DNA of 27,581 nt from a virus, in IMG/VR virus record IMGVR_UViG_3300037189_002759, positions 1 to 27,581 of that record, one strand, 5' to 3'. Below, in pieces: positions 2,365-21,517 of the stretch. Position numbers and translations under genes: made by a program. Under the pieces are notes generated by a model, which worked only from the letters and a program-made list of their open reading frames with translations, did not search any database and was not told the DNA's origin. Numbering within the stretch: position 1 is the stretch's first letter; every line of letters starts with the position of its first letter.

Positions 2365-3281
2365 GCTTCAACTTCTTTTAATTTAGTTGTCATGTTAATT
2401 AATTTATTGTTTCCAACAATATTTTTATATTGAATTGTTGGTGCATCCATGACGCAACCAGTAGAGCCCTGTCCTGGACTCCAGCTTGTTCCATAATAAA
2501 CTGATTGAGTATACGCATCATGGTTATGTCCAGCAACGCTTGTGCTTACAAAATAAGTGGCTACACCGCCACGAATAGTGATAGTCGACGGTGTGGCATC
2601 TGACTTAGAAATATATATTCTTACAGCTTTTACACGCGGCGAAGCGCCTGTAACGTTGCTAAATTGACCAGAACTATCAAAAACACTTGTTCCGCTAATG
2701 GTCAACTGGTTTAAAGTTACAGTTGTACCTTCTGTTCCATCATAAAGAATAGGCACAGCCTTAAGGCTTGCAGTTCCAGTAGCAGAATAACAAAAACCAA
2801 CCTGCAAGAAATGTTCTTCTGGAACAAGCAAAGTTAAAGACCTAGATGTTTCTGCAGTATTAGTTACAGTATATAGTGCGCTTTGATATGGATAGCTTCT
2901 ATTTGTTGTTGAGTGAGTTACTGGCGTTGGTTTGTTATCGCTAGAAATGTGGCTTGGCCAGTCACGCACAGAAAGCATTGGTGCAGCCCAATGCGGTGGA
3001 AGAATATTCTTAGCAAATGGGTCTTCCCAATAGAGCAGACCGCCACCATAAAGTCCATCTTTAAAGTTCTTGATAACCTGCAAATCATCTAATGTGCCGT
3101 TCCAGCTTAAATCATAAGATTTAGCTGAGCCAAAAGAGGATTTAACAAAGCTTCCACCATTATTAAAAGTTTGTTCAGAACTAAATCCAGTAGCCCCAGC
3201 ATTCATATCAGCTAGTGGAGCTTTAATCCAAGTACCATAACGCTGGTTACCAAACCAAACTTTACCATCATATACAGCCAT
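2355..3281 (-). CDS. Distal tail (Dit-like) minor tail protein
   Basis: A 308-residue protein directly downstream of the tape measure, joined by a TAATG overlap (ATG at 3279-3281 inside the tape measure stop). A GAGAGGG Shine-Dalgarno-like stretch lies about 9 nt upstream. The N-terminus (MAVYDGKVWFGNQRYGTWI) and the segment 'SYDLSWNGTLDDLQVIKNFKDG...GLLYWEDPFAKNILPPHWAAP' match the usual form of the first minor tail protein after the tape measure in actinophages, which forms the distal tail ring. The remainder is beta-rich, with a predicted jelly-roll-like segment around residues 120-250 (TSRSLTLLVPEEHFLQVGFCYSA) that could be a carbohydrate-binding or accessory module. Function is assigned mainly by gene order. 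Confidence 0.75.
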   Translation of the reverse strand: MAVYDGKVWFGNQRYGTWIKAPLADMNAGATGFSSEQTFNNGGSFVKSSFGSAKSYDLSWNGTLDDLQVIKNFKDGLYGGGLLYWEDPFAKNILPPHWAAPMLSVRDWPSHISSDNKPTPVTHSTTNRSYPYQSALYTVTNTAETSRSLTLLVPEEHFLQVGFCYSATGTASLKAVPILYDGTEGTTVTLNQLTISGTSVFDSSGQFSNVTGASPRVKAVRIYISKSDATPSTITIRGGVATYFVSTSVAGHNHDAYTQSVYYGTSWSPGQGSTGCVMDAPTIQYKNIVGNNKLINMTTKLKEVEAWL

Positions 3282-6200
3282 TAGTTAGACCCTCTCATTG
3301 CAAGTAACCTATTTCCTCTATTTGCACTAGTAGCAATTTGCCTATCATCTGAATACAGATTTATTGGACGGTTAGACATTGCCATTAGCTGATTTACTGC
3401 TTCAGGGGATAATTCTACCACAATATTTCCACTTCCAGATGAAGCAGATTGTTGAGAACCGTAAGACTGTCTATATGATTGCATCCTATTTAACGCATTT
3501 AAAAAGTCTATGCCATATGTCTTTACTGCTCTAGCATTAACAACATACTCACCATTTGAAAGCATTTTAGGAACGCTGTCGCTTGTACTGCTTCCCGGAC
3601 CAGTTACTAAACCACCGCTAGACATGTTATTGCGGTCTAAAAGTCCACCACCGCCAAACGAACCTCCAAGCATTCCACCCACAAAGCTTGGCATTCTAGT
3701 TGGCCTCATGCTAATTTCACCAGTACTACGCATTTGTTGTCTCCAAGAATGTAAACTTGAATCTATTCTTGCATTAGAGTATTTGTCTAAAGACTTTATT
3801 CTTCCTAGTTCGCCGTGAGTTTCACCCCTATTTTGGTCTTTATTGTTTCGAGCTTTCCATTTACTATCCATCTGTTTTCCAAACCACTCACCAAGAATTT
3901 GAGTCCAGTCTTTACCAACAGGGTTAGGTTTTTTATTGGCAGGAAGATTGCCCTTATTAATAGCATTCAAAACATAAGGCCCAAGCGCCTTAGCAGCATC
4001 TGCTTTAATAACATATTCGCCGCTAGATAGCATAGCTGGAACAGAATCACTTGTGCCGCTTCCAGGACCGAAAACTTTTCCACCAGACTCATAACGCTTT
4101 CCAACAAAGCCACCCATAGCTTTTTTCTCATATTCGTAAACAGCATCGCCGCGTTCGTTATATCCGGCAAGCTTCCAACCCTCACGCATGTTGCCCCAAC
4201 CATCTTTTGGTGAGTCTTTAGCGTTTTTATACAAAGCTTCATTAACATTCTTAACATACATTGGGTCAGTTGACTTACCTCCATGTTGAAGGTAATCAGC
4301 AAATTGTTTATTGTTAGACTTTGAAATATCTATAACACCAGCATTAACACTATGTGTGTATGGGTTATACTCTCCAGGATAAAGTTTTTCATGCTCTTTA
4401 CCTAGTTCAGCAAGACTCTTAGCATCCTTCCATGCGGATGCTGCTTTCTTCTGCGCTGCGCTAAGATTAATTGGATTAACAACTTGTGTATACGGATTGT
4501 ATTTTCCAGGATTTAGAGCAGCATGAACTGAAGCAAGGTCAGCTAAAGGCCTGCCAAATTTTTTAACAATTGGCGGCTCTTTATAAAAGTTAACCGAGCC
4601 GTCATATGGGTTGTAATGCCCAGGGTACATCTTTCTGTGCTTTGCTGCCAGCCCAGCACGGTCAGACTCTTTGTATCCCGTAGGAAGCGCGTGCTTTTTA
4701 TTCCATGTAGCTAGACGTTTTTCATAGTCAGCTTGCTGATATTCAGCATCATAACCAGTCCATTTTGACTTGCCCTTATTGCTACCCCATATGTTATCTT
4801 TACTTCCGCCATTGCCAGCGTACCAGTTTCTTTCAACGTTACCCATATAGCTGCTTTCCCCATTCCAGCTAGATGGTGTAAACGCTGAGGCAGCAAAGTT
4901 TATTGGCTGCACTGCAAGGTTTATTGCATTTAATCCAACATTTCCAACGTCATACCAGAACCCACCTGCCTGCTGTGCCTGTGTAGGACCACGCACGGCA
5001 GTAGGCTTTAGGTCTTCAATTGGGGTAGTTGATGGGTTATATCCAACAACCTTACCACTTTGACCCTTTTTCTTCTTTTTATCAGTTTTACTTGTATCTT
5101 TAGTAGATGTTTGGTTTGCTGGATTCTCACTAGACTTAGCCCACCATTCCATAAAAGCTCTAGTACCAGGGTCTGCAACAACTTTAAGAGTAAGAGTATT
5201 AGGAAGTTTATTTACAATAGTTTTAAAATCCTCAAAAGACTTGACGTATGGAGCAAGTTCATTTTCAGCAAAACCAAGTCCCATAGCTTTAGTTTTAAAC
5301 TCTGATTTCAAAGAATCTGCTTTTGCTTTAATTCTATCTCTATCAGCTTTTTGATTTTTTCCAGTGTATTTGCTATATTCATTTGCCAATGCTGCAAGTT
5401 CTGAATTATAATCACCAACAAGTCCAAGAATTGTATCACGGTTTGCAATAGCGCCTCGACTATTTCCGGTTAATCCAGTACTAGCATCTTCTGCGGCCTT
5501 ATTGTATTCAGCTTGTTTATTTGTGATTTCACTTCTTTTAGTATCAAGTTCTGCACGGATTTTATCAGCACGAAGAGTATCGCCATATTTTAAAGCAATA
5601 TTAAGTTGATATTCAAGAATATTTTTATCTGCAGTCATTGCGGATATTTCCTGATTAATGGCTTGCATCTGTTTTTTAGCCTCAGAAAGTCTATCCGAAA
5701 CACCAGCCCATGATGTTTCTAACTTATCAACTGCTTCAACAGAACCATATCTGATAGTAAATGCGGCACCTATAATCGTTGAAAGGTCACCAACATAATC
5801 AGTTAATGTGTAAACCCTCTTAATTGTTTCATTTAGGTTATTGTCAAATTCATCAAGACCATCACCAGCGGCACCAGTAGCGCCCTTAAGGGCTTTCCAA
5901 ATTTTAGTATTTCTTAATCCAGCTTCTGTAGTGCCATCAAGGGCTGCTGCAATATCATTAAGGTCTCCATAAAGTTGGTCACGATATTGTTTTGGAATTA
6001 GTCCATCAGCAAACCATGCACTCAAGTAATCTTGTGCACCCTTGCCAGGGTCAGCTAATGCCATGCCAATCATATCGCTAATTTTAACATTAGCCTGTTG
6101 AGCAAGTGCATCTAAATCTAGTCCTTGGTCAAACCAAGACTCAAATTTCTTTTGCACAACATCATCTTTCATGACTGCCTGAGCAAGCCACTCTTTAGAA

Positions 6201-9200
6201 TTTTCACCTAGAGCAAGTGTTTGATTTTTAACTGACTCGGTTACATGAGTAACTTTATCATCGAGTTCAACTACGGAGCCTGTAGCATTTTGCATGCTTT
6301 CAGCCCATGTTGTAATTTGTTTTTGCTGAGTTGTAACCTTGCTTTTATAGGTTCCAATAGCATCAGCACCATCCTTCCAAGCAGAAGTATCTTTATAAAT
6401 TGCTTCACGGAAAGAGGCAATACCACCGCCGGCCTCCTCAAGGTTAACCTTAAGTCCCTCGATATAAGAAGATATTGCGCTAACAGCCATAAGCACAACA
6501 GATATTGCACCAGCTGCCATTGTAAGTTTAGTAAGCGCTCCACCAAACTTATTTGTTATAGATTCACCAGCAGTCATAAGCGCAACTGTTTCAGCCTGAG
6601 CAACATTTGTTCCAGCAAGGGCAGCTTGCTTAGATTCAAGTGCAATAATTTCACCTTGAATAGCAGCTGCATCTGCCCGGCTAGCCGCAATTGATGCTTC
6701 CGTGGCGACGGTATTACCAGTTGTTGCACCTAGGGAAGCTTCTTTAACTAAAATTTCATTTTCAAGCAATGCTAAAGCAGCTTGCTTAATTGATATCTGC
6801 TCACCAATAACTGCTATCTCTTCTTGCGTTGCTAAAGCTGATGCAGTCTTTGCTTCAGCCTCTGTCATAGCGGCAGCACCATTTGCTTCGGTAGCAGTTG
6901 TGTTTGCTACTTTTGCATCAGTGTTTTCCAATGTGGCAATAGTATCTTGATTTGAAGTTAAGGTAGCTTGAGCCATTCCACTCTTTTGGTCAATCATTCC
7001 CTTAGTTGAGTCAAATCCAGCTCTTCTTGCATCAGCACCAGCCCTAAGAGTTAAGTCCTCACTGCTACCGCGTGGAGCAATTTTAATTTCCCCAGCAGCT
7101 TCCATTTCTTTAATACGTTTTTTGCTAGCAACTTCAATACGGCCATTAGAGCGAATGATAAGCTGCTCTTGACCCATAAGCATTTTTCTGAAACCATTTA
7201 ATCCAGTATCTTGACCCGAAATTTTACTTAAAGAAACTTGAGCTGTTCTAAATGCTAGAGTAGCTGCGGTTGCTTTCATGCTAATCATCTTGTAGGTAAC
7301 CATGACCGCTATTAGTCCTGCAATTCCAGCAATAATTTGCATTGCAACTTTAGCCATTGGATTTTTTGACCATTCATTCATTGATGTTATTAGCCAATTT
7401 ATAGCGTCAACAGCAAGTCCAACAGCTGGAGAAAGTGCCTGCCCAAATGCATCTTGAAGCATTTTAAGCTGATTATTCATTAATTCCATTTTAGTTGCAA
7501 GATTGTCTTGAGTCTTTGCGTATGAATCTGACAAGAATGAACCATTAGCGTAAGACTCTTGAGCATCAGCCATTGATTGATTATAAACATCCATATTGTT
7601 AGCAAGCTTCTGCAATGTTGAGACTTCACGTGTTTCCTTGATGTTTAGACCATCAAGTGCACCAGTCATGTTCTTGCTATTCTTAAGACCATCAAGCATT
7701 GCTTTAAAGAAACCTTGAGGGTCGCTCTTCCAAAGTTCTTTAGCCTGAGAAGCGCTCATACCTAGGTGCTTGGCATATGCATCAAGAGGCTTACCTCCAC
7801 CTTCAACGGCACGATTAATATCACCAAACAAACGCGTAATAACACCACGTGCTTGTTCAGGTGCAATACCCAGAGATGACATGGCTGTAGCCAAGCCAAC
7901 AACTTCATCTGCTGCAAAACCAGAATTATTTGCTGCTGCAGCAATATTTTCTGTCAATGTGAGAATTTCTTCATCAGTAGCAACAGCATTAACTCCGGCA
8001 AAGGCTACGGCAGAACCAAGCTTATCAAAGTCCTCTGAGGGAACTTTAGCTAGCTGAGCAATTCGACCAAACTTTTGCGCGACAGTATCTGAAGCAAGTC
8101 CAGTAATTGCCGAGAACTTTGTCACCTGTTCTGTAAAGTTTGTGATACCATCAGCCTTAATACCCATCTGTGCACCAAGGGTAGTAATCTTAGATAGTTC
8201 ATCAAAAGCTACAGGCAGCTCACCAGTTAGCTTAACAATTTCATTACGCATTCCAGCAAATTCATCTGGAAGGGGCTGCATTGCTCTTTCAACAGAAGTA
8301 AAAGATGTTTCATATGATGCAAATGTTTGAACAGCTTTTTGGAATTCTCTTCCAACACTCATGAGAACACGCTGGAACTGCTGATAGGTATTCGCAACGT
8401 CATACAAGGCATAGCGTCCGCTAATCCAGGAATCCATCATCTTACGGTTGTATTTCTCAACCTGAGCCATGACGGTCATCTCGCCCTTCATCTGACCCTT
8501 AATCATCTCAGATGCAGCTTTTCTTTTTTTAGCTTCGGCCTCTATGCCTTGGTCCATCCAGCTTTGATGAGTAACATTGTCATACGCTCCAGGAGCTGCA
8601 GTTCCTTCAAGGTTAGGAAGTTTAGTATCGTCTTTCTGTTTTCTCTTGCGGATTCCATCAGGAAGTTCAAAAGCGTCACGGCCATTCTTATATTTACCAA
8701 CCGGGCCTGAAGCAACAGAAGCATCAAGTTCGGCAATAAGCTGGCTTACGGCTTGAATAGTTTCAGTGTAGCCCTTTTCTTCTGCAACCTTAAGCTCAGC
8801 TAGAAGCTGTTTCTTAATGTTTGTGATTTGAGATTTACCGGCAACACGGTCTTTTGCACCACGCACGCCTTCAGCAGCAAATACATCAACCTCAGCAGAA
8901 GTTAGCTGTCCATTGCCATCACGCATGCGACGCTTGCCAACAGGGCCAGACTTAATACTCTTTTGAACGTAAGCTAGTTCTTGTTCAAGTCTGCTAATAA
9001 GAGTTGGGCCAAGACCGCTAGCAACTGCAGAAGTTAAAGATTTTTGAATTCTCTGTTCTGCGGCTTGTAGCTCTGCTAGTGGTGCGGCAATAACACTTCC
9101 AGGAATTCTAGGAGTCTTCGGCTGTGCCTGAGTCTGCGTTCCAAGCTGAGTATCAATCTCAGCTTGAGTTTCCTTGATTTGTTTTTCAAGTTGTTTCTGC

Positions 9201-12200
9201 AAATCACTCTTAGGAATTCTAGGCTTCTTTGCCCTAAAACGATTTTGCCAGTCGCCACCAGCATCAAGCTCCATGCTTCTAATTCCGCCATTAGCCTGAA
9301 TCTGTCTTTGATACGCATCTGCAACATCAGGTCTTTCGGCCATTTTCTTTGCAATTTTAGCTCTAAGGGCTAAAACATCTTTAGCTTGCTGTGGGCTTGC
9401 AGACTTTCCCTGAGTCTTCATTATGTTATCTAGGTCGGCAAGTAGGAGCTTAAGTCTAGACTGGTCTTCCTCAAGAAGGTCAACCTCATATTGGAACTCA
9501 GCCTGCGCCTTTAGCTTGCGTATCCGAGCCTTTTCTTTCTCAAGGTCATCAATAAGCTTTTGCTGTCTAGCTGCAGCATCACCAGCTTCTTGTGCGGCCT
9601 GCTGAGGGTCTTGAGCAGGAACTACAGGTTCTACTGCAGGCTTAGGAGCTGGAGCCTGCTGTGGGCCGTATGGAGGCTGTAATTGACCGCCATGCACAGC
9701 TTCCTGACGCTTGAAACTTTTCATTTCTGTTGGACTGCCAGTTACATATTTTTGCGGGTCTTCCTTAGGGGCAAACTTGCGAGAACCCCAAATAGCATCA
9801 GAAACTTTTTGCCAAGTGGCACCCAATAGCTGAACTGATTTACCAAGCAAATCTGGCTTTGACATCCCAGCTTGGCCAGCAGCATTTCGCATAGTAAAAG
9901 CATTAACTAGAGTAGCAGCGGTATCAATGGTAGGGTCGTGAGCTACAGCAGTTTTGTCTGCAAGTTTAGGTGTATTGCCAACAGGTGGAATAAGTTCTGC
10001 ACCCATAGTCTTGCCAGTAAGAAGCTCGTACATTGCCCCAACTTTACCGGCAACCTTGCCACTCAAGTCCCTCATGTAACCGCCAAGCATCTTACCCATG
10101 CTTTGAGTTTCTACAAGAAGACCCTTGTCCTTAAATTGACCCGCAGTTGGAGCCGCTATACCGTAGTGTGCAAACTCTTTACCAAGAGTAGTAAGGTCGC
10201 TAAGTGGTTGGCTATGAATTGCAAGAGGAATGCTCTCATCATAAAGCTTTCTAAGAATATGTGCAATATCTTCAAGCTGATTAACGTATTCTTGTTCACT
10301 ACCTGTAGTTTTTTCTTTTCCATAACCAAGACTAGTAATTCGCTTAATAAGGTTAGGTAGAATGTCTGTGGTAATATTCTTGCCAGTGCCAAGTAGGCCA
10401 AGCGCATCAGCTGCACCCATACTGAAGCGAGTGCCATCTTTGGGTGGCACAAGCATTCCGTGAGCCACACCAGTCATACTTGGTGTTACTACAGGAGTAC
10501 CTGGAAGTGCTCCAGGCTCGCGTGAGAACTCGCCTGCACCAGCAACTACAGAATAACCAAACACGCGGGCACGGTTTGTTTTTCCAGTATCCTTATCTCT
10601 GCTTATGCCAGTTGTTTCAATATCTAGAGCAACTAGAATATCCTCTGCTTTAGCTCTTGCAATATCAAGAAGTTTAAGATTTTCTGCATTTCTGCGCTCA
10701 ATTTCTTCTTGAGTTGAAAGCTTAAAACCAGGAGATTTAGCCGGTGGAACATAAGGTGGTGTGCCAGCTCCCGCTGCTCGACCAACATCAGCAAGTCTCT
10801 TTCTTTCTTCTTCCGTCCTCATTGAAGGCAAGGTAGAAGTTTGCTGTTCTGGCACAGGAGGTGCAGAACGCATCATCTTTAAACCATTTTGAATACGCGC
10901 CTTAGCAGCGTCAGTTCCCTCTTTTTCAAGTTTCTGAATAAGCTCAGCGGCGCTAACTCTAGCCTCTTCGCTCCAGCCAGTATGGAAGCTATCAGCAAGT
11001 TCTCTACCAGCCTTATCAAGTCTTGCAATACCATCAAATAGGCCTTCTTCAAGACCGTCAATTGTATTATCACCAGAACGCTTCATGCGCTTAGAAGGGG
11101 ACTCAATCTCCATCGTGCCTTCATAGCCATCAATAAAGCCTTGAGCGGTATCCGCACCAGCTTGCTCGGCTCTAGAGACTCCAGGTGCTAGACCAGCAGT
11201 AAGACCATTTACAGTCTCGCCATATTTAGCGCGAATAGCATCCATTGGTCCATAAGAAATTGGGCCCTGTCGAACTCCAGTATCAGTTGTTATTCTACCT
11301 TGAGTTACTGCAGCAGAAGACTTTGCAAAAATGTTAGCCATTTCATTAAGAAGGAAGTTATTAACATCAACTTGGCTACCATCGTCCATAGTGCCTTTTA
11401 GCCCATAGGCAGGCCCGTCAGTAGTTCTATCAAGCTTTTCAAGAATACCATTTAGCTTTTCAATTGGAAGTTCAGCTCCACCAGCTTTATCGGTTGAATC
11501 TTTTTTGCCAACTGAAACCATTGGGGCAGAAGCTTTTAACATATCCGCAATAAAACCGTTACGGTTTTTCATAAAGGCTTGAGCATAAGTTGATTCTGTG
11601 CCAGAAGCAGATGGCAAACCTAGCTCATTAAATTTACCTGTTTTACCAAGATTTCCAGCCATTGGAATTTTGTAGATATCTTCAAAGACTTTAGATAGAT
11701 ACCTAAGTGCAGTTACAACAGGGCTAACGCCTTCAGTAAAGTCATCAAAAATATTTTTAATCTCTTTAGTTATTGGCTCACCAAAATCATTTAGCATTGG
11801 GCTGCCATCTGCATTTAGCGCAGTTACTTTTTTAGTTCCAGAAGTTCTTGTAGAATTAAATAACTTAAAGAAAGTGTCAAGCTGAGGATTTGATTGACTT
11901 GAACCGGGAAGAAGAGACATTGAATCTGGAGTAGTAGTATCTTGTCTAGTCTGACCAGTGTCAGTGCGTATTTTATTGTCTTGAGTTAAAGCTGCAAAGT
12001 ATAAGACTGTGTTAAGGAATTCTTCTTGAAGAGATTGTAGAGACATGTGTATGTCAACAATATCTTGCTCACCTAAAGCCTTCCACTCCATCGGAGTAAA
12101 ATCTTCGCTAAGCATAGATAGTTGAGGTTCAAGCTTTGGGTTAGTTAGGCCTTCATTAACTTTTTGAAGAATATTTTGTATAACTTTTGTTAAGGCACTA

Positions 12201-14377
12201 TCTGGACCAATTATTCTTGCAACCGCTGCAATATCTTTACTTCCAGGCGTACCTGATGAATCTTTCTTTTTTGCCCCGACAGCACCTTCAATTGTTCCGT
12301 CAGCGCTTCTAATTCCGTATGGGCCAATAGCGTTAAGACCTATAGATGGAGTTTCTTTTAGGCCAAGAATTTCTTGAACAAGTTTTGCAAATCCTCTATC
12401 AAAGCCTTTTTCAATTTCAGTTTGAGTAATACCGATTGGCACAAGTTGCAGAGCTCTTCCAGCCTTGTCTTCTGCTGCAGCGTCAGAACTGCTTTCATCC
12501 CTTTCAGCTGAGGCACCTTTGGTAGTCTCACTGCTCCAAAACATTCCATTATCTTTTATTTTAGTTAGTGGAGTAGATGGGGATAGAATTGACTTATTTC
12601 CAGCTGCCCTTAATTCCTTGGCTCTAGTATTTGCCTTTTCGACAGCAAGCATTACAGCTTCAAAAACCATCTGCAATTCTTCAGCCGTTACAGCAGCAAT
12701 TTCATCACTTAATCCTTTACTTGCAGCATCGCTACTAACTGTATATATACCAGCTTTTTTATCTTTAGACTTGCTACCAAGCGATAGGATGTCAGTTAAT
12801 TCTTTTGTGCTTTGGTTTGCGTCTCGTAGGTTTTTAGCCATGTCTTCGCTAGCAGTAACAATAGAACCACTTGCTTCACTAGAATCACCTTTAACAAACT
12901 CACTATTAACAGCAGCTTCTGCAGAGCCTTTTTGTTTTTTAGTAGACCCTTTTTCATCATCTTCGACATAATTGCCAAATTCATCAATTAAATCTTCTAG
13001 GGCCTGTCTAAGTTCTGTTTCGCTATCGCTAGTATTTTCAAGTTGGCCTTTTAGCTCATCAATCATAGAGCTAAAGTCAGCCTTAGTATCTCTAAGAATT
13101 ACTGCAATTCCACCTTGACCCTTAGAGGCTTTGTCAGCTTGTTCTTGAGAAACTTTATTAGGAAGTAGAAGACGCAGTGCTGGAATCATGAAGTTAGCAA
13201 TAGCACCACCACCAGCCATTTGATTATCAAAAATAGTGCCAATACTACTAGCACCTCTAGCGGCAGCAGTTTCTCTTGCAAGCTTTAAAATCTTATCTGC
13301 AGCTTCGTTAATTGCACCATACTGCTTGCCACCAAGTGGAGCAGTTGACCTAGTAGCTGGAAGATTTCCAGGATTCTTAACACCACTTTCAGATGGCCCC
13401 CTAGAACCCCGCATACCTTTAGTAATTTCTTTAACACCACTAGTTTTGCTTGTGCTAGCGTCAGATAAAACATCTAGCTCATCTGTAACCCAAAGCAAGT
13501 AGTCATGAGTCTTTTTAATTTTTTTAACGTAGTCTTCAACAATTTTCTTGTCAGCTGCGCTTCCAGTCTTGTCAAGCTGTTTCTTTGCATCAGCATATTC
13601 TTGTCGCATCTTCTTTAAGGCACTAGATGTACGTTTTTGAACATCTTTAAAGTCTTGGACTTGCGCCTTCATTGCCGCTACTACTTCAGGGCCACGCTCT
13701 AGTTTTTCAAGTTCTTTTAGAAGCGCTATTCTTTCTGAGGCCGCTTTTCTATTAGCCTTTGCTCTAGCCTCATTGGCTTTTTTAGTCTCTTCATACTCAA
13801 CTTTAATTGCATTAAGAATATCTGGTGATTCAATTAATTTTTGAAGTTCTTTTTGAGCAACAGCAATTTCATCCATTTGCTTTGAAACACTAGCAGTAAG
13901 CTCTCTTCTTTCCTTCTGAAGTTTACCTAAAGCAGTTTTTATAACTTCAATCTGAGTATTGATTACAGGACCCGGAGAGCTAGACTTTAGAAGAGCTTGT
14001 AATGCAATTTGTCTGTCAGCAATAAAACCATCAAGCTGCTTAATTCTTTTTTGAATAGTACCAATAGCACTAGGTGCAGCTTTCTGCAAAGCTGCTGGCA
14101 CTTTTTCGGAAGCAAGGCCAGTTGTCTTAGTGTTTTTATCTCCAATTGAAACTTTAAGTTTATTGATTCTAGCTACAGATGCCTCAACCTTATCAAGGTC
14201 TTTTTGATACTTAGTATCAATTTTTACCTTTATTGGAGCAACTTTAAAATTGATAGACTTAAGCTCTTCACGTACAACTCTAGCTTTTTTGCGAGCATCT
14301 GCGACAAAGGCAGCAAGCTCCTTGCTTGCTGCGCTTATATCTAACCCAAGGGATATATTAAAGTCTTCGCCAGCCAC
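3281..14377 (-). CDS. Giant tape measure protein with embedded DEDDh exonuclease domain
   Basis: About 3,698 residues, setting tail length and ejected with the DNA. I prefer the GTG at 14375-14377, preceded by AGGAG four bases upstream. A TTG at 14398 in the same frame has no ribosome site and lies in a small inverted repeat. Layout, numbered from the GTG: Lys/Glu/Ala-rich coiled-coil-like region 1-320; low-complexity linkers; a tape-measure style 'IESPSKRMKRSGDNTIDGLEEGL' motif near 1090; Pro-rich linker 1205-1217; DEDDh exonuclease domain about 1247-1498; Pro-rich linker about 1565-1595; coiled coils to about 1990; canonical phage tape-measure core (PhageMin_Tail-like) about 2015-2260; hydrophobic membrane-type helices about 2343-2365 and 2617-2640; Ala/Gln/Glu-rich coil between them; three YNPY repeats about 3247-3345; two 'SDSVPxMLSxGEYV' motifs near 3445 and 3600. 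The core normally sits near the N-terminus, so about 2,000 residues are an extension. No lytic transglycosylase or peptidase motif was recognised. Confidence 0.93.
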   Translation of the reverse strand: MAGEDFNISLGLDISAASKELAAFVADARKKARVVREELKSINFKVAPIKVKIDTKYQKDLDKVEASVARINKLKVSIGDKNTKTTGLASEKVPAALQKAAPSAIGTIQKRIKQLDGFIADRQIALQALLKSSSPGPVINTQIEVIKTALGKLQKERRELTASVSKQMDEIAVAQKELQKLIESPDILNAIKVEYEETKKANEARAKANRKAASERIALLKELEKLERGPEVVAAMKAQVQDFKDVQKRTSSALKKMRQEYADAKKQLDKTGSAADKKIVEDYVKKIKKTHDYLLWVTDELDVLSDASTSKTSGVKEITKGMRGSRGPSESGVKNPGNLPATRSTAPLGGKQYGAINEAADKILKLARETAAARGASSIGTIFDNQMAGGGAIANFMIPALRLLLPNKVSQEQADKASKGQGGIAVILRDTKADFSSMIDELKGQLENTSDSETELRQALEDLIDEFGNYVEDDEKGSTKKQKGSAEAAVNSEFVKGDSSEASGSIVTASEDMAKNLRDANQSTKELTDILSLGSKSKDKKAGIYTVSSDAASKGLSDEIAAVTAEELQMVFEAVMLAVEKANTRAKELRAAGNKSILSPSTPLTKIKDNGMFWSSETTKGASAERDESSSDAAAEDKAGRALQLVPIGITQTEIEKGFDRGFAKLVQEILGLKETPSIGLNAIGPYGIRSADGTIEGAVGAKKKDSSGTPGSKDIAAVARIIGPDSALTKVIQNILQKVNEGLTNPKLEPQLSMLSEDFTPMEWKALGEQDIVDIHMSLQSLQEEFLNTVLYFAALTQDNKIRTDTGQTRQDTTTPDSMSLLPGSSQSNPQLDTFFKLFNSTRTSGTKKVTALNADGSPMLNDFGEPITKEIKNIFDDFTEGVSPVVTALRYLSKVFEDIYKIPMAGNLGKTGKFNELGLPSASGTESTYAQAFMKNRNGFIADMLKASAPMVSVGKKDSTDKAGGAELPIEKLNGILEKLDRTTDGPAYGLKGTMDDGSQVDVNNFLLNEMANIFAKSSAAVTQGRITTDTGVRQGPISYGPMDAIRAKYGETVNGLTAGLAPGVSRAEQAGADTAQGFIDGYEGTMEIESPSKRMKRSGDNTIDGLEEGLFDGIARLDKAGRELADSFHTGWSEEARVSAAELIQKLEKEGTDAAKARIQNGLKMMRSAPPVPEQQTSTLPSMRTEEERKRLADVGRAAGAGTPPYVPPAKSPGFKLSTQEEIERRNAENLKLLDIARAKAEDILVALDIETTGISRDKDTGKTNRARVFGYSVVAGAGEFSREPGALPGTPVVTPSMTGVAHGMLVPPKDGTRFSMGAADALGLLGTGKNITTDILPNLIKRITSLGYGKEKTTGSEQEYVNQLEDIAHILRKLYDESIPLAIHSQPLSDLTTLGKEFAHYGIAAPTAGQFKDKGLLVETQSMGKMLGGYMRDLSGKVAGKVGAMYELLTGKTMGAELIPPVGNTPKLADKTAVAHDPTIDTAATLVNAFTMRNAAGQAGMSKPDLLGKSVQLLGATWQKVSDAIWGSRKFAPKEDPQKYVTGSPTEMKSFKRQEAVHGGQLQPPYGPQQAPAPKPAVEPVVPAQDPQQAAQEAGDAAARQQKLIDDLEKEKARIRKLKAQAEFQYEVDLLEEDQSRLKLLLADLDNIMKTQGKSASPQQAKDVLALRAKIAKKMAERPDVADAYQRQIQANGGIRSMELDAGGDWQNRFRAKKPRIPKSDLQKQLEKQIKETQAEIDTQLGTQTQAQPKTPRIPGSVIAAPLAELQAAEQRIQKSLTSAVASGLGPTLISRLEQELAYVQKSIKSGPVGKRRMRDGNGQLTSAEVDVFAAEGVRGAKDRVAGKSQITNIKKQLLAELKVAEEKGYTETIQAVSQLIAELDASVASGPVGKYKNGRDAFELPDGIRKRKQKDDTKLPNLEGTAAPGAYDNVTHQSWMDQGIEAEAKKRKAASEMIKGQMKGEMTVMAQVEKYNRKMMDSWISGRYALYDVANTYQQFQRVLMSVGREFQKAVQTFASYETSFTSVERAMQPLPDEFAGMRNEIVKLTGELPVAFDELSKITTLGAQMGIKADGITNFTEQVTKFSAITGLASDTVAQKFGRIAQLAKVPSEDFDKLGSAVAFAGVNAVATDEEILTLTENIAAAANNSGFAADEVVGLATAMSSLGIAPEQARGVITRLFGDINRAVEGGGKPLDAYAKHLGMSASQAKELWKSDPQGFFKAMLDGLKNSKNMTGALDGLNIKETREVSTLQKLANNMDVYNQSMADAQESYANGSFLSDSYAKTQDNLATKMELMNNQLKMLQDAFGQALSPAVGLAVDAINWLITSMNEWSKNPMAKVAMQIIAGIAGLIAVMVTYKMISMKATAATLAFRTAQVSLSKISGQDTGLNGFRKMLMGQEQLIIRSNGRIEVASKKRIKEMEAAGEIKIAPRGSSEDLTLRAGADARRAGFDSTKGMIDQKSGMAQATLTSNQDTIATLENTDAKVANTTATEANGAAAMTEAEAKTASALATQEEIAVIGEQISIKQAALALLENEILVKEASLGATTGNTVATEASIAASRADAAAIQGEIIALESKQAALAGTNVAQAETVALMTAGESITNKFGGALTKLTMAAGAISVVLMAVSAISSYIEGLKVNLEEAGGGIASFREAIYKDTSAWKDGADAIGTYKSKVTTQQKQITTWAESMQNATGSVVELDDKVTHVTESVKNQTLALGENSKEWLAQAVMKDDVVQKKFESWFDQGLDLDALAQQANVKISDMIGMALADPGKGAQDYLSAWFADGLIPKQYRDQLYGDLNDIAAALDGTTEAGLRNTKIWKALKGATGAAGDGLDEFDNNLNETIKRVYTLTDYVGDLSTIIGAAFTIRYGSVEAVDKLETSWAGVSDRLSEAKKQMQAINQEISAMTADKNILEYQLNIALKYGDTLRADKIRAELDTKRSEITNKQAEYNKAAEDASTGLTGNSRGAIANRDTILGLVGDYNSELAALANEYSKYTGKNQKADRDRIKAKADSLKSEFKTKAMGLGFAENELAPYVKSFEDFKTIVNKLPNTLTLKVVADPGTRAFMEWWAKSSENPANQTSTKDTSKTDKKKKKGQSGKVVGYNPSTTPIEDLKPTAVRGPTQAQQAGGFWYDVGNVGLNAINLAVQPINFAASAFTPSSWNGESSYMGNVERNWYAGNGGSKDNIWGSNKGKSKWTGYDAEYQQADYEKRLATWNKKHALPTGYKESDRAGLAAKHRKMYPGHYNPYDGSVNFYKEPPIVKKFGRPLADLASVHAALNPGKYNPYTQVVNPINLSAAQKKAASAWKDAKSLAELGKEHEKLYPGEYNPYTHSVNAGVIDISKSNNKQFADYLQHGGKSTDPMYVKNVNEALYKNAKDSPKDGWGNMREGWKLAGYNERGDAVYEYEKKAMGGFVGKRYESGGKVFGPGSGTSDSVPAMLSSGEYVIKADAAKALGPYVLNAINKGNLPANKKPNPVGKDWTQILGEWFGKQMDSKWKARNNKDQNRGETHGELGRIKSLDKYSNARIDSSLHSWRQQMRSTGEISMRPTRMPSFVGGMLGGSFGGGGLLDRNNMSSGGLVTGPGSSTSDSVPKMLSNGEYVVNARAVKTYGIDFLNALNRMQSYRQSYGSQQSASSGSGNIVVELSPEAVNQLMAMSNRPINLYSDDRQIATSANRGNRLLAMRGSN
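4344..4640 (-). repeat. Three YNPY repeats in the tape measure C-terminal region
   Basis: Three copies of a roughly 40-residue unit with the conserved part L-x-x-x-H-x-x-x-x-P-G-x-Y-N-P-Y-x-x-x-V-N occur at about residues 3247-3263, 3285-3302 and 3328-3345. The copies read 'HRKMYPGHYNPYDGSVN', 'HAALNPGKYNPYTQVVN' and 'HEKLYPGEYNPYTHSVN'. The DNA copies differ at many silent positions, so the repeat is kept at protein level. Function is unknown to me; a surface or wall-binding role is only a guess. Confidence 0.85.
9884..10639 (-). other. DEDDh (DnaQ-like) exonuclease domain inside the tape measure protein
   Basis: All five expected catalytic residues are present in order. Motif I is 'ILVALDIETTGI' with D1252 and E1254. 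Motif II is 'IPLAIHSQPLSDLTTL' with D1394. Motif III is 'VAHDPTIDTAATLVNAF' with H1480 and D1485, the exact H-x4-D spacing of the DEDDh subclass. Intervening text also fits the family: 'VVTPSMTGVAHGM' resembles the segment after strand 3, 'LLVETQSMGKML' resembles 'iDTlxlar', and 'KVGAMYELLTGKTM' resembles the helix before motif III. Spacing between motifs I and II (142 residues) and II and III (86) is longer than in DnaQ (about 91 and 59), so loops are expanded. Numbering is from the GTG start at 14377. Known family activity is 3'-5' exonucleolysis of DNA or RNA using two metal ions; activity here is inferred. Confidence 0.85.
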
Positions 14378-14396
14378 GCTTCTCCTAAATGGATTC

Positions 14397-14414
14397 AATA
14401 TGTATACACATATT
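14397..14414. repeat. Small inverted repeat between chaperone and tape measure
   Basis: AATATGT at 14397-14403 and ACATATT at 14408-14414 are perfect 7-bp arms around a 4-base centre. It covers the alternative TTG start of the tape measure and the chaperone stop, which supports the downstream GTG with its AGGAG site as the true start. It is AT-rich and weak, and may have no function. Confidence 0.4.
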
Positions 14415-15544: not shown

Positions 15545-15558
15545 AGTCTAATTAGACT
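15545..15558. repeat. 14-bp perfect palindrome at the tail tube stop
   Basis: AGTCTAATTAGACT is its own reverse complement and overlaps the TAG stop of the tail tube gene (15557-15559). It directly abuts the large hairpin at 15504-15544, so RNA here could form two stacked stems. A protein-binding site is an alternative reading. Confidence 0.5.
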
Positions 15559-16867
15559 AAGCTAGAACAACATTCTTGCCAAGCTTACCCTGTGGGGCAA
15601 AGTTGACCATGAACTTAATGCTGTCTTCACCTTCGGTGTTTTCTTTTACAGCGTCTGCAGTAAACTTGTAAATAGATACAACATCAGAAGCAGCATAAAC
15701 GCTTGTAGCAGTCTTGTTTACACGTACAGTCAAGTAGCCAGTAGGACGAGTTGAACCTGTTGAAAGGTAGAAAGTGTCCCATGCTAGAGTCTGTGCGTTG
15801 AAGAAAGTTGCAATGTCGCCAGCTACAAGTAAAGTAGCATTTGCTCCGCTTAGGGTAACGGTTGTATTTGGGCTTGAGTAGCTAACAGCAGTAACAGTTA
15901 GGTCCTTGAATCTGGTAGTCAAGCCATCAGCAGACATAACTTTAACGCTCATACCAACTTCAACCTTAGAGGTGATGTCAGTAGAAACAACAAAGGTACT
16001 TGCTGCAGCAGCACCGGAAACAACAGTTGCTGTGCTAGTTGACTTAGGGCTACGGAAGAAGTTCAGCATACCTGACATCTGAGCAAAACCACGAGTCTGA
16101 ACCTGTCCTTCATCCAAAATTGAACGGTCTTCAATCTTGTTTGAGTCCTGGTTACCAAGCTCAAAGCTATCCCAAGCAATAGCTTCGGTTAGGTCATAAG
16201 ACTTAGTAGTATCTGCAAGGATAGTCAAAGCAGTACCAGTTAGGAAAGTTGATTCAGTAGTTACGTTAGCAACAGGAGTCCAAGAAACCTTAATCTTACC
16301 GTTAGAAGTAGTCTTAGTTCCAGTTGTTGCAGCAGTAGTACCAAAGGCAGTTGCAGTACCAGTTGGAACAGTGTAGTTAAGCTTAACCTTACCAGTTGTC
16401 AAGAATCTTGCACCAAAGCGAATCATTTCGCCATCGCCAAAAATATCTACTGGATAGTCTGTCTTAACACCAAAGATGCTAATAAGGTCACCACCAACAA
16501 GGGTATCACTGTGAAGCTTTCCAACGCGCTTGATTAGGTAGTACTCAGTATCTACAGTGTTGAACAAGTCGCGGAACTTGTTGTAAACAGAAGTTGCTGT
16601 AAGACTCTGGTCACGGAAGCCATCAAGAGATGCCTCGTAATTAAAGTAGGTTGGAGTTGTTACGTCAGCATTGTCAACCAAGCTGAGTGAGTTATCTGAC
16701 TGTGAATCTGTTTGGTTTAGAGTGTAGTCATCTGTAACTGCGGCAGAGATGTTGAAAACCTTAGTTGAGCTTGTGAGTTCTGCAAAAGTTGGGTTCTTCC
16801 AGTCAGCAAAAGCATCTGAGCTTGCAACGTATATGCCCACATTTGGGCGTAGCATTTTACTAGGCAT
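15557..16867 (-). CDS. Major tail (tube) protein, enlarged
   Basis: A 436-residue protein that starts at ATG 16867 behind GAGGAA. It is encoded between the tail terminator side and the chaperones, the standard place for the tube subunit that forms the tail lumen. The N-terminal part (MPSKMLRPNVGIYVASSDAF..., 'YNKFRDLFNTVDTEYYLIKRVGKLHSDTL', 'IFGVKTDYPVDIFG') has the character of tube proteins, as does the C-terminal 'GEDSIKFMVNFAPQGKLGKNVVLA'. Many siphophage tube proteins are shorter. Two Ser/Thr/Val-rich beta segments at about residues 154-222 and 274-348 look like additional domains, the second reading like an immunoglobulin or SH3-like module ('DITSKVEVGMSVKVMSADG'). They may project from the tube surface. 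Confidence 0.82.
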   Translation of the reverse strand: MPSKMLRPNVGIYVASSDAFADWKNPTFAELTSSTKVFNISAAVTDDYTLNQTDSQSDNSLSLVDNADVTTPTYFNYEASLDGFRDQSLTATSVYNKFRDLFNTVDTEYYLIKRVGKLHSDTLVGGDLISIFGVKTDYPVDIFGDGEMIRFGARFLTTGKVKLNYTVPTGTATAFGTTAATTGTKTTSNGKIKVSWTPVANVTTESTFLTGTALTILADTTKSYDLTEAIAWDSFELGNQDSNKIEDRSILDEGQVQTRGFAQMSGMLNFFRSPKSTSTATVVSGAAAASTFVVSTDITSKVEVGMSVKVMSADGLTTRFKDLTVTAVSYSSPNTTVTLSGANATLLVAGDIATFFNAQTLAWDTFYLSTGSTRPTGYLTVRVNKTATSVYAASDVVSIYKFTADAVKENTEGEDSIKFMVNFAPQGKLGKNVVLA

Positions 16868-18920: not shown

Positions 18921-19112
18921 TTAACTAATGATTGCATTAATCTCATCTTCAGTTAAACCTAATTTTTCTAATTTAGCTAAAGCTGATTGCCTAATAGCTA
19001 ATGCTTCAGTTTCTTGTCTAGTAGATTCTTCTCTTGCTGCGATTTCTTCTAGAGTTTCATCTCTTTCAGTTATTTCTCCAGTTTCACAGTTTATATCAGT
19101 TATTTTATTCAT
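18921..19112 (-). CDS. Small helical protein paired with the fibre gene
   Basis: A 63-residue acidic protein ([28 protein letters not shown]...), joined to the fibre gene by a TAATG overlap (ATG at 19110-19112). It has the form 'D.ETGE...R..T.EEIA.RE', then a helix, then 'ALAKLEKLGLTEDEINAII'. Short proteins of this form are frequent next to phage fibre or tail genes. The overlap implies translational coupling to the fibre, so a fibre-assembly or fibre-associated role is a reasonable guess but unproven. Confidence 0.72.
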   Translation of the reverse strand: MNKITDINCETGEITERDETLEEIAAREESTRQETEALAIRQSALAKLEKLGLTEDEINAIIS

Positions 19113-21433
19113 TAATTAACTCCATAAATAGTAGCGGTTCCGGTAGCACCGGTCCATGTATTAGTTGTTGCTTGAAATGAAATTTGACTTATTGCTGATG
19201 TGGTAGTTCCTACTCCCCATCTTGATGCGTTTGTTGTAGCACCAATTCCACCAGAAAGCCACATGGTTGGGTTTGGTGAATTGTAGTTTGGTATTTCAAC
19301 TGTGTATATGTTAGTTATTGTTGGTGAAGTTGCGATTGTAGTTAGCGGCATTCCATTAGCAGAACCTGCTGACGTTGAAGATGTGGTTGAACCAGTTGAG
19401 TATGTTGTATAAGCAACAGTAGAACCAGAGTTTACGCTCATGGAAAATGTTCCAGCTAGGCTAGGAACATTTGTAAATGATATTTGTACAACAAGCTTTT
19501 TGTAAGTTTGAGGAATTGAAGAAAATGATGGCTGTGTTCCGCTAAATATAGATTCAGCAATTTTAGTATATCCTTTATCTGCCCAAGTAGGGGTAACGCC
19601 AGTACCAGAGGATGTAAGCACTTGTCCGGCACTACCAGCTGAAGTGTTCATTCGAAGTTCTCTGGTAGTTCCAGAAAGGTCTAAGTTTCCAGTAATGCTT
19701 CCACCGAATGTTGAGAAAAAAGAACTCCAAGCCCAACCACCACTGACTGGTGCATAAACTGGCGCTTGACCATAAGATGGTGACACATACTGCATGAAAT
19801 CTGATGGTGAAATCGCTCTAAATGATGGTACTCCAGCAGCTCCTGTTGGTGCAGCAAAAAACCTTGATGCTGTTTGACTTGGAAGAGTAATGCTATTAAG
19901 AGTTAAGTCAGATGACCATTGAGTGTTATAGCTTGTGCCGTCAATCTTTGATAAAACTTGATTAGCAGTTCCGAGGGCAGGTACGCCCTGACCGTTAGTT
20001 CCGTTAGAGCCATTAGTTATAGTAAAAGTAGTAGTAGTTGCATCGGTAAAAGTAATCGTATAAGTATCAACTAAACCTGCTGTTGAAGTTTTAACTACTG
20101 TAGATATTCCTTTACCAGTAGTACCTGTCGCACCATTATTGACTGTGAATGTTGATGTTGTCGAATCAGAATAGGTAATTGTATATGTATCAACTAAGCC
20201 AGCAGTATTAGTTTTAGAAATTGTAGAAACTCCACGACCAGCAGCACCATTAGCACCATTAACTACAGTAAAAGTGGAAGTTGAAGCATCGGAGTAAGTT
20301 ATTGTATAGGTATCGGTAGAACCCGCAAGCCCAGTACCAGAAGTTCTAGCGATAGATGTAATACCACGACCAGTACCACCATTAGTGCCATTTGAACCAT
20401 TATATACAGTAAAAGTAGTTGTAGAACCGCTCGTATAAGTAATAGTAAAAGTGTCTGTTGTTCCAGCAGCACCAGTTCCAGATGTTCTAGCAATCGAAGT
20501 AATGCCATTACCTGTTGCACCAGTAGCCCCAGCAGGTATTCCAAAGTTAAATGTTGCTGCACTAGAATTTCCCACATTGGTAATAGTTGGAGTTGAACCA
20601 GCAGATAGTCCTGTGACAGTTCCTACTGCAATAGTTGCGGCAGCACCGTTAGTTCCATTAGTTCCATTGACTACTGTGAAGGTGGAAGTTGTAGAATCAG
20701 AATAACTTATTGTATAAGTATCAGTAGAACCAGCAAGTCCTGTGCCTGAGGTTCTAGTAATTGATGTAATACCACGACCAGCAGCGCCATTAGACCCGTT
20801 GTAAACACTGAAAGTACTTGTAGAACCACCTGTATAAGTAATAGTGAAAGTATCTGTTGTTCCAGCAGCACCAGTTCCAGAGGTTCTGGATATAGATAAA
20901 ACTCCATTTCCAGTAGCACCAGTATCGCCTTTTAGGCCAGTATCGCCAGTTAAACCAGTATCTCCTTTAGGACCTTGCAGACCAGTGTCGCCTTTTGGAC
21001 CTTGTAGACCAGTATCACCTTTAGAACCGGTTAAACCAGTATCACCTTTAGCTCCAGTAGAGCCAGTAGCTCCAGTAGGTCCTGTAGGGCCCGTAGGGCC
21101 GGCTGGTCCTGTAGCGCCCGTTGCTCCAGTAGCACCTGTAGCTCCAGTAAAGCCCATTGGGCCCTGTGGGCCATCATCACCAATAAGCCCCTGTAAACCC
21201 CTAGGTCCAGTAGGCCCTGTAGCGCCCGTAGGGCCAGTTGGTCCGGCTGGACCAGTAGCACCTGTAGCACCAGTTTCTCCACGCTCTCCTTGAGGCCCCT
21301 GTAGCCCCCTTGAGCCACCTCCGCCATCTCCAGAGCTATTAGGTTTTTTATCAATACGCTTAATTTCGCGTTCAACAGTATCAGCCCAATCTTGAGCTGG
21401 GTCTGGTAAATTATTATTTGGAAAAATTATCAT
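19112..21433 (-). CDS. Collagen-like and beta-repeat fibre protein
   Basis: 773 residues from the ATG at 21431-21433 (AAGG four bases upstream). A GTG at 21499 in the same frame is rejected because it lies before the terminator hairpin. Layout: N-terminal anchor 1-42 ([20 protein letters not shown], then a Gly-rich hinge); about 45 Gly-X-Y triplets at 43-176, rich in GPTGPTG, GATGATG and GPKGDTGLQ, expected to form a collagen-type triple helix; seven beta repeats at about 176-480; '[12 protein letters not shown]' linker near 485; C-terminal beta domain about 640-773 that could bind a ligand or trimerise the fibre. The gene sits inside the head module, between major capsid protein and head-tail adaptor, so it could be a capsid fibre rather than a tail fibre. 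Gly and Thr content is far above that of its neighbours. Confidence 0.85.
19985..20910 (-). repeat. Seven in-frame beta repeats in the fibre gene
   Basis: Six copies of a unit of about 40 residues follow the pattern G[38 protein letters not shown]. One divergent unit ([23 protein letters not shown]..., ending [11 protein letters not shown]) lies between the second and third full copies. The last two copies are shortened ([26 protein letters not shown]). Codons vary between copies, so the DNA repeats are imperfect. Confidence 0.85.
20905..21309 (-). repeat. Collagen-like Gly-X-Y tract
   Basis: About 45 consecutive Gly-X-Y triplets are coded here, with GAT, GPT, GPA and the 9-residue unit GDTGLQGPK repeated. 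The DNA is a run of imperfect 9-bp repeats (gly-codon pattern GGN), a likely site of slippage and length change between related phages. Confidence 0.9.
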
Positions 21434-21454
21434 GATGCCTTCATTATACCCTAT

Positions 21455-21493
21455 AAAAAGTCCACCCCGGAGCAAAAGCTCAACAGGGTGGAC
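21455..21493 (-). terminator. Rho-independent terminator / attenuator before the fibre gene
   Basis: Outer arms GTCCACCC (21460-21467) and GGGTGGAC (21486-21493) are perfectly complementary. Inside is GAGC-AAAA-GCTC (21470-21481), also a perfect 4-bp hairpin. On the minus strand the stem is followed at once by TTTTT (21459-21455), the classical terminator arrangement. It lies between the extended -10 at 21523-21531 and the fibre start, so it should end most transcripts from that promoter. Confidence 0.82.
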
Positions 21494-21517
21494 GGCCACG
21501 AAGGAGGGAACGTGACA
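21455..21517 (-). ncRNA. Candidate small RNA with anti-Shine-Dalgarno loop
   Basis: If transcription starts about 6-7 bases after the extended -10, near 21516-21517, the RNA would be about 62 nt. It opens with a 6-bp hairpin (21495-21516, one G-U pair) whose 10-base loop is UUCCCUCCUU, and ends with the terminator hairpin plus U5. The loop is complementary to AAGGAGGGAA, a perfect Shine-Dalgarno. C-rich loops of this kind are used by known bacterial small RNAs to bind ribosome sites. The RNA and its function are inferred. Confidence 0.45.

Follow-up and report, generated by a model that had tools for sequence, protein, structure and literature searches.

The tape measure gene and its surroundings

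The window analysed here is a virus record of 27,581 bases, which is 100% identical to positions 6860-34440 of a 54,906-base IMG/VR contig. On its minus strand, the genes follow the order terminase, portal, protease, capsid, tail fibre, connectors, tail tube, tail assembly chaperone, tape measure protein (TMP), and minor tail proteins. The TMP open reading frame (3281-14398, minus strand) is open for 3705 codons from a TTG. An in-frame GTG at 14377 is the likely start, giving a protein of 3698 aa, because AGGAG is found 4 bases upstream of it. Residue numbers such as D1252 are given from this GTG; numbering from the TTG adds 7. The protein matches Pfam PhageMin_Tail with E = 6e-13 and PHROG tape-measure families down to 1e-106, and its gene is placed after the chaperones and before the distal tail proteins, as is expected of a siphophage TMP. 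Judged by these matches and by gene order, the window is the structural module of an uncultured siphophage and the reading frame a bona fide TMP gene in its tail operon. The features of the gene are collected in Table 1.

Table 1. Positions in the window of the TMP gene and of the segments described in the text.
Feature	Position	Strand	Remarks
TMP gene	3281..14377	-	3698 aa from GTG (3705 aa from TTG 14398); PF10145 and five tape-measure PHROGs
Proline-rich linker before the domain	10709..10891	-	15% Pro
Exonuclease domain as modelled	9863..10708	-	TTG numbering 1231-1512; includes a short N-terminal helix with an invariant Arg-Asn; from family alignment, AlphaFold2, and Foldseek
Motif I, D-I-E (D1252, E1254)	10616..10624	-	Invariant in 8 distinct homologues
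Motif II, HSQPLSD, with catalytic D1394	10196..10216	-	Invariant D, and invariant His six residues earlier, in 8 homologues
Motif III, H-x4-D (H1480, D1485), the 'h' form of DEDD	9923..9940	-	AHDPxxD invariant in 8 homologues
Proline-rich linker after the domain	9539..9862	-	12% Pro
Conserved TMP core (PhageMin_Tail region)	7214..8581	-	Common to TMPs of ordinary size; C-terminal to the exonuclease
Hydrophobic segments, candidate membrane-spanning part	6452..7348	-	TTG residues ~2351-2369 and ~2621-2649; hydropathy scan; C-terminal to the exonuclease

Several other features of this region were observed. The C-terminus of the TMP (3281-4100, minus strand) contains the motif GPGSxTSDSVPxMLSxGEYV twice. 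An SPSK...G...GLEEGL motif at TMP residues ~1060-1180 (~10850-11220, minus strand), just before the exonuclease, is conserved in the exonuclease family; motifs of this kind are common in TMPs. The major tail tube protein (15557-16867, minus strand) has 436 aa, and three stretches of it match a 171-position PHROG and a 167-position Pfam tail-tube family, which suggests extra or repeated domains. A tail-fibre-like gene of 795 aa (19112-21499, minus strand) lies within the head-tail connector block; two segments inside it, 20247-20525 and 20655-20924, form a direct repeat with 79% identity. On the longer contig of the phage, a class II glutamine amidotransferase (PF13522, 2e-17) is encoded near the packaging genes (L112:17262-18428, minus strand).

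A DEDDh domain within the tape measure protein

The sequence-only reading had assigned a DEDDh active site to D1252, E1254, D1394, H1480, and D1485, within 9884-10639. We find this numbering to be correct for the GTG start, and all five residues lie within that interval, with minus-strand codons at 10622-10624, 10616-10618, 10196-10198, 9938-9940, and 9923-9925, respectively. The proline-rich linkers that it described on both sides are likewise present, with the proline contents in Table 1 compared with 3.7% overall. The D-x-E of motif I, the Asp of motif II, and the H-x4-D of motif III form the same catalytic set as in the DEDDh exonucleases of the DnaQ/RNase T superfamily (PF00929). A DEDDy assignment was set aside, since motif III is H-x4-D and not Y-x3-D. 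In the profile alignment, HSQPLSD of motif II falls on HNAAFD of E. coli DnaQ, and motif III is aligned with motif III of DnaQ. Relative to DnaQ, motif II of the TMP domain is longer by one residue, and about 25 residues are inserted ahead of motif III.

No exonuclease match was found for the domain in Pfam or PDB sequence searches, or with PF00929 (RNase_T) itself. The sequence-only reading had named the lack of a significant HMM match as grounds for abandoning the assignment, and formally this is the result obtained. The domain thus differs from the known DEDDh exonucleases both in lying below Pfam RNase_T detection and in being embedded in a tail protein. Since these searches did not recognise it, relatives were collected by scanning IMG/VR with the exonuclease domain and with the TMP core. 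Eight distinct domain-bearing sequences were obtained, those of the window, L002, L003, L004, L007, L015, L016, and L020; the window is the same phage as L001, L007 is a duplicate of L008, and L016 of L109. The homologues are 31-71% identical to the window and come from contigs of several metagenomes.

The fold was predicted with AlphaFold2 from the eight-sequence alignment, with the domain of L015, the most compact homologue, as query. The model has pLDDT 87.3 and pTM 0.89. For the window's own domain, modelled from 4 sequences, the result was poor (pLDDT 45), and a fold search with it is meaningless; the good model is that of the homologue, and its transfer to the window rests on the family alignment, in which the two domains are 38% identical. 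The L015 model has an RNase H-like exonuclease fold, its strands and helices following the DEDDh order, b1-b2-b3-aA-b4-aB-b5-...-aE, the same as in PARN (2a1r) and TREX1 (7tqn). In a Foldseek search of the PDB, the best match was the nuclease domain of PARN (E 1.7e-4), with TREX1 at 4e-4. Further matches were Maelstrom, DNA polymerase II, Nibbler, oligoribonuclease (Orn), and other polymerase exonuclease domains, and the Foldseek probability was ~1 for most of the PDB matches. The named viral matches are mostly exonucleases, including DEDDh and 3'-5' exonucleases. The fold match, together with the positions of the five catalytic residues in the secondary structure, suggests that they would share one site.

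A reference profile was built from nine known members of the DEDDh group, two of them from E. coli (DnaQ and RNase T) and the others phage exonucleases, and the TMP family profile was compared with it. The local score was 30.5, while the maximum in 200 column shuffles was 22.6; the global score was 27.3, as against 15.4 in shuffles, and the global alignment, unaided, paired each of the three motifs with its counterpart. When 28 overlapping segments along the TMP alignment were compared with the DEDDh profile, the two best matches both fell on the domain. Furthermore, a relaxed regular expression for the order of the motifs matched 7 of 20,000 shuffled whole TMPs, and among about 80 real TMPs it matched members of the family only. 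It is only from the profile-profile comparison and the structure model built on the family alignment that the DEDDh identity becomes clear; with the conservation described below, they support the earlier claim of a complete DEDDh domain in the TMP.

Conservation of the five catalytic residues in relatives had been proposed as a check, and they are invariant in 8/8 homologues down to 31% identity, in a segment of 282 residues that has only about 39 invariant positions altogether. The most divergent homologue, L015, has near textbook motifs, AFDDE, MHNIGYSD, and AHDPTID. Identity per 100 residues is mostly 0.13-0.37 in the N-terminal region and 0.50-0.57 over most of the exonuclease, so that in this alignment the domain is an island of conservation within a variable N-terminal half. 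In the two closest pairs, the dN/dS of the domain is ~0.19 and ~0.12; these values are rough, as dS is high. A kept active site together with purifying selection is what should be expected of an enzyme and not of a relic. As a separate observation, L015 and the window are 64% identical in the tape core and only ~31-38% identical in the exonuclease; hence, the L015 domain seems either to have evolved faster or to have been exchanged.

Distribution among related tape measure proteins

The sequence-only reading had also called for a search of related phages for TMPs with or without the domain, and besides the eight distinct carriers this gave 71 shorter sister TMPs without it. These 71 proteins have homologous cores (28-44% identity), and none carries the exonuclease domain. 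As sequenced, all are shorter than 1,850 aa, and a few of them end at a contig edge downstream of the place where the domain would be expected. They include the TMPs of Curtobacterium and Stenotrophomonas phages. By contrast, every TMP found with a core identity of at least 57% carries the domain, and those that are complete have about 3,300-3,700 aa. Among the TMPs found, the domain thus appears only in one clade of giant proteins (~3300-3700 aa). Likewise, the TMPs examined from Curtobacterium, Microbacterium, and Arthrobacter phages (e.g., Commonplace, Yappy, and Amigo) have cores homologous to that of the window TMP but reach at most about 1,850 aa, with neither the exonuclease nor the long N-terminal extension. 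The alignment to the sister TMPs starts at residue ~1984, so the exonuclease belongs to an N-terminal addition of about 1,700 residues.

When two of the family domains were searched with tblastn in a collection of 50,697 phage records, no relatives were found. Bacterial and archaeal genome contigs, scanned twice, also yielded none, and so provided no prophage copy and no host link. The closest annotated relatives of the portal and the TMP belong mainly to phages of Actinobacteria, and because of this an actinobacterial host is a reasonable guess, though only a guess.

Possible role of the exonuclease

What is the function of an exonuclease in a tape measure protein? TMPs occupy the lumen of the tail and leave it before the DNA. 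If the exonuclease behaves as the rest of the protein does, it would be carried in the tail and meet the cell at genome entry. During genome injection, the TMP of lambda has been labelled next to inner-membrane host proteins (PMC13190303), and TMP-related proteins are reported to serve as ejected effectors in actinobacterial contractile systems (PMC13277306). The hydrophobic segments of the window TMP, located C-terminal to the exonuclease, fit the same picture. Loading into the tail and delivery at infection, as the sequence-only reading had proposed, are plausible by analogy with what TMPs do.

We propose that a TMP of this siphophage lineage acquired a DEDDh domain like that of DnaQ, TREX, and PARN in the N-terminal extension of ~1,700 residues, where a flexible proline-rich linker would flank it on each side. 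Being part of the TMP, it would be packed in the tail and pass out through the tube before the genome does. Once ejected, the TMP would be inserted in the cell membrane, and the domain, whether at the entry site or in the cytoplasm, would work as a metal-dependent 3'-5' exonuclease. Its target would be host or defence nucleic acid, the removal of which could ease the establishment of infection. We infer, with somewhat better than even confidence, that the TMP of this lineage carries a DEDDh 3'-5' exonuclease which is catalytically active, packaged in the virion tail, ejected before the genome, and directed at such a target. The results suggest, short of proof, that the viral DNA is accompanied by an injected nuclease when it enters the cell. 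More tentatively, the TMP may serve as the vehicle of a nuclease effector which destroys host or defence nucleic acid (e.g., retron DNA, guide RNA, or signalling oligonucleotides) at genome entry, and it would then be a tail-borne counterpart of the head-borne anti-defence proteins that are injected. Note that a globular domain of ~250 residues is large for the tail lumen and may have to travel partly unfolded. The N-terminus of a siphophage TMP is its head-proximal end; a domain located there might not reach the cytoplasm, or might work on the DNA end of the phage itself.

The latter reading, in which the domain works on the end of the phage genome in the tail or neck, for example by trimming or holding the 3' end near the head, agrees with its N-terminal position upstream of the conserved core and with the need of DEDDh enzymes for a free 3' end. 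We nevertheless think it improbable, since the sister phages with homologous cores manage without the domain, and circularisation would be at risk if cohesive ends were trimmed. Action in the producing cell is another reading that we hold to be unlikely. Phage structural genes are expressed late and strongly, and a late-made TMP, or a domain cut out of it at the linkers, could degrade host RNA or DNA or trim replication products before or during tail assembly. The flexible linkers on both sides would allow such proteolytic release, but neither a protease site nor a separate start was found, and the in-frame fusion seen in 8/8 members would be an odd route to a free late enzyme.

The fold might also be catalytically silent and kept as a structural or nucleic-acid-binding module. 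Some proteins with the DEDDh fold have lost the usual catalytic set, and Maelstrom is among the fold matches. Retention of the five catalytic residues in 8 members to 31% identity, while most other positions have changed, makes a silent module quite improbable. The proposal that there is no real exonuclease, but a chance resemblance of motifs or a mis-assembled chimera, draws on the lack of an HMM match at family thresholds; we consider it very improbable, given the confident L015 fold with its exonuclease matches and the shuffle controls that the family profile exceeded. A mis-assembled chimera was set aside, since the same fusion and architecture are present in contigs from several metagenomes.

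The enzyme domains known in TMPs mostly open the cell wall. A nuclease-bearing TMP, of which the sequence-only reading knew no described case, was not found in the literature searched, which covered few subscription journals; TMPs with wall-degrading domains are already known. The TMP of mycobacteriophage TM4, which has a peptidoglycan hydrolase motif (cited in PMC13277306), resembles that of the window in having an enzyme domain fused in the TMP and presumed to be delivered by the tail. Whereas the known enzymatic TMPs such as that of TM4 act on the cell wall, the domain described here has a nuclease fold and is N-terminal to the core. Ejected phage polyvalent proteins (PMC5512222) and effectors of contractile injection systems (CIS) such as Sle1 (PMC13277306) are also multi-domain or reconfigurable, and are presumed to enter the recipient cell by injection and to be active there, but their carriers differ from the window TMP. 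A text search of the polyvalent-protein paper (PMC5512222) found no mention of 'tape measure', and the Sle1 paper (PMC13277306) makes no mention of a nuclease effector.

With a conserved and apparently intact exonuclease, the TMP would also carry a cargo that acts on nucleic acid at the start of infection. The site of this cargo would coincide with the place where entry-sensing defences such as SNIPE work. The related phages without the domain provide a clean natural comparison.
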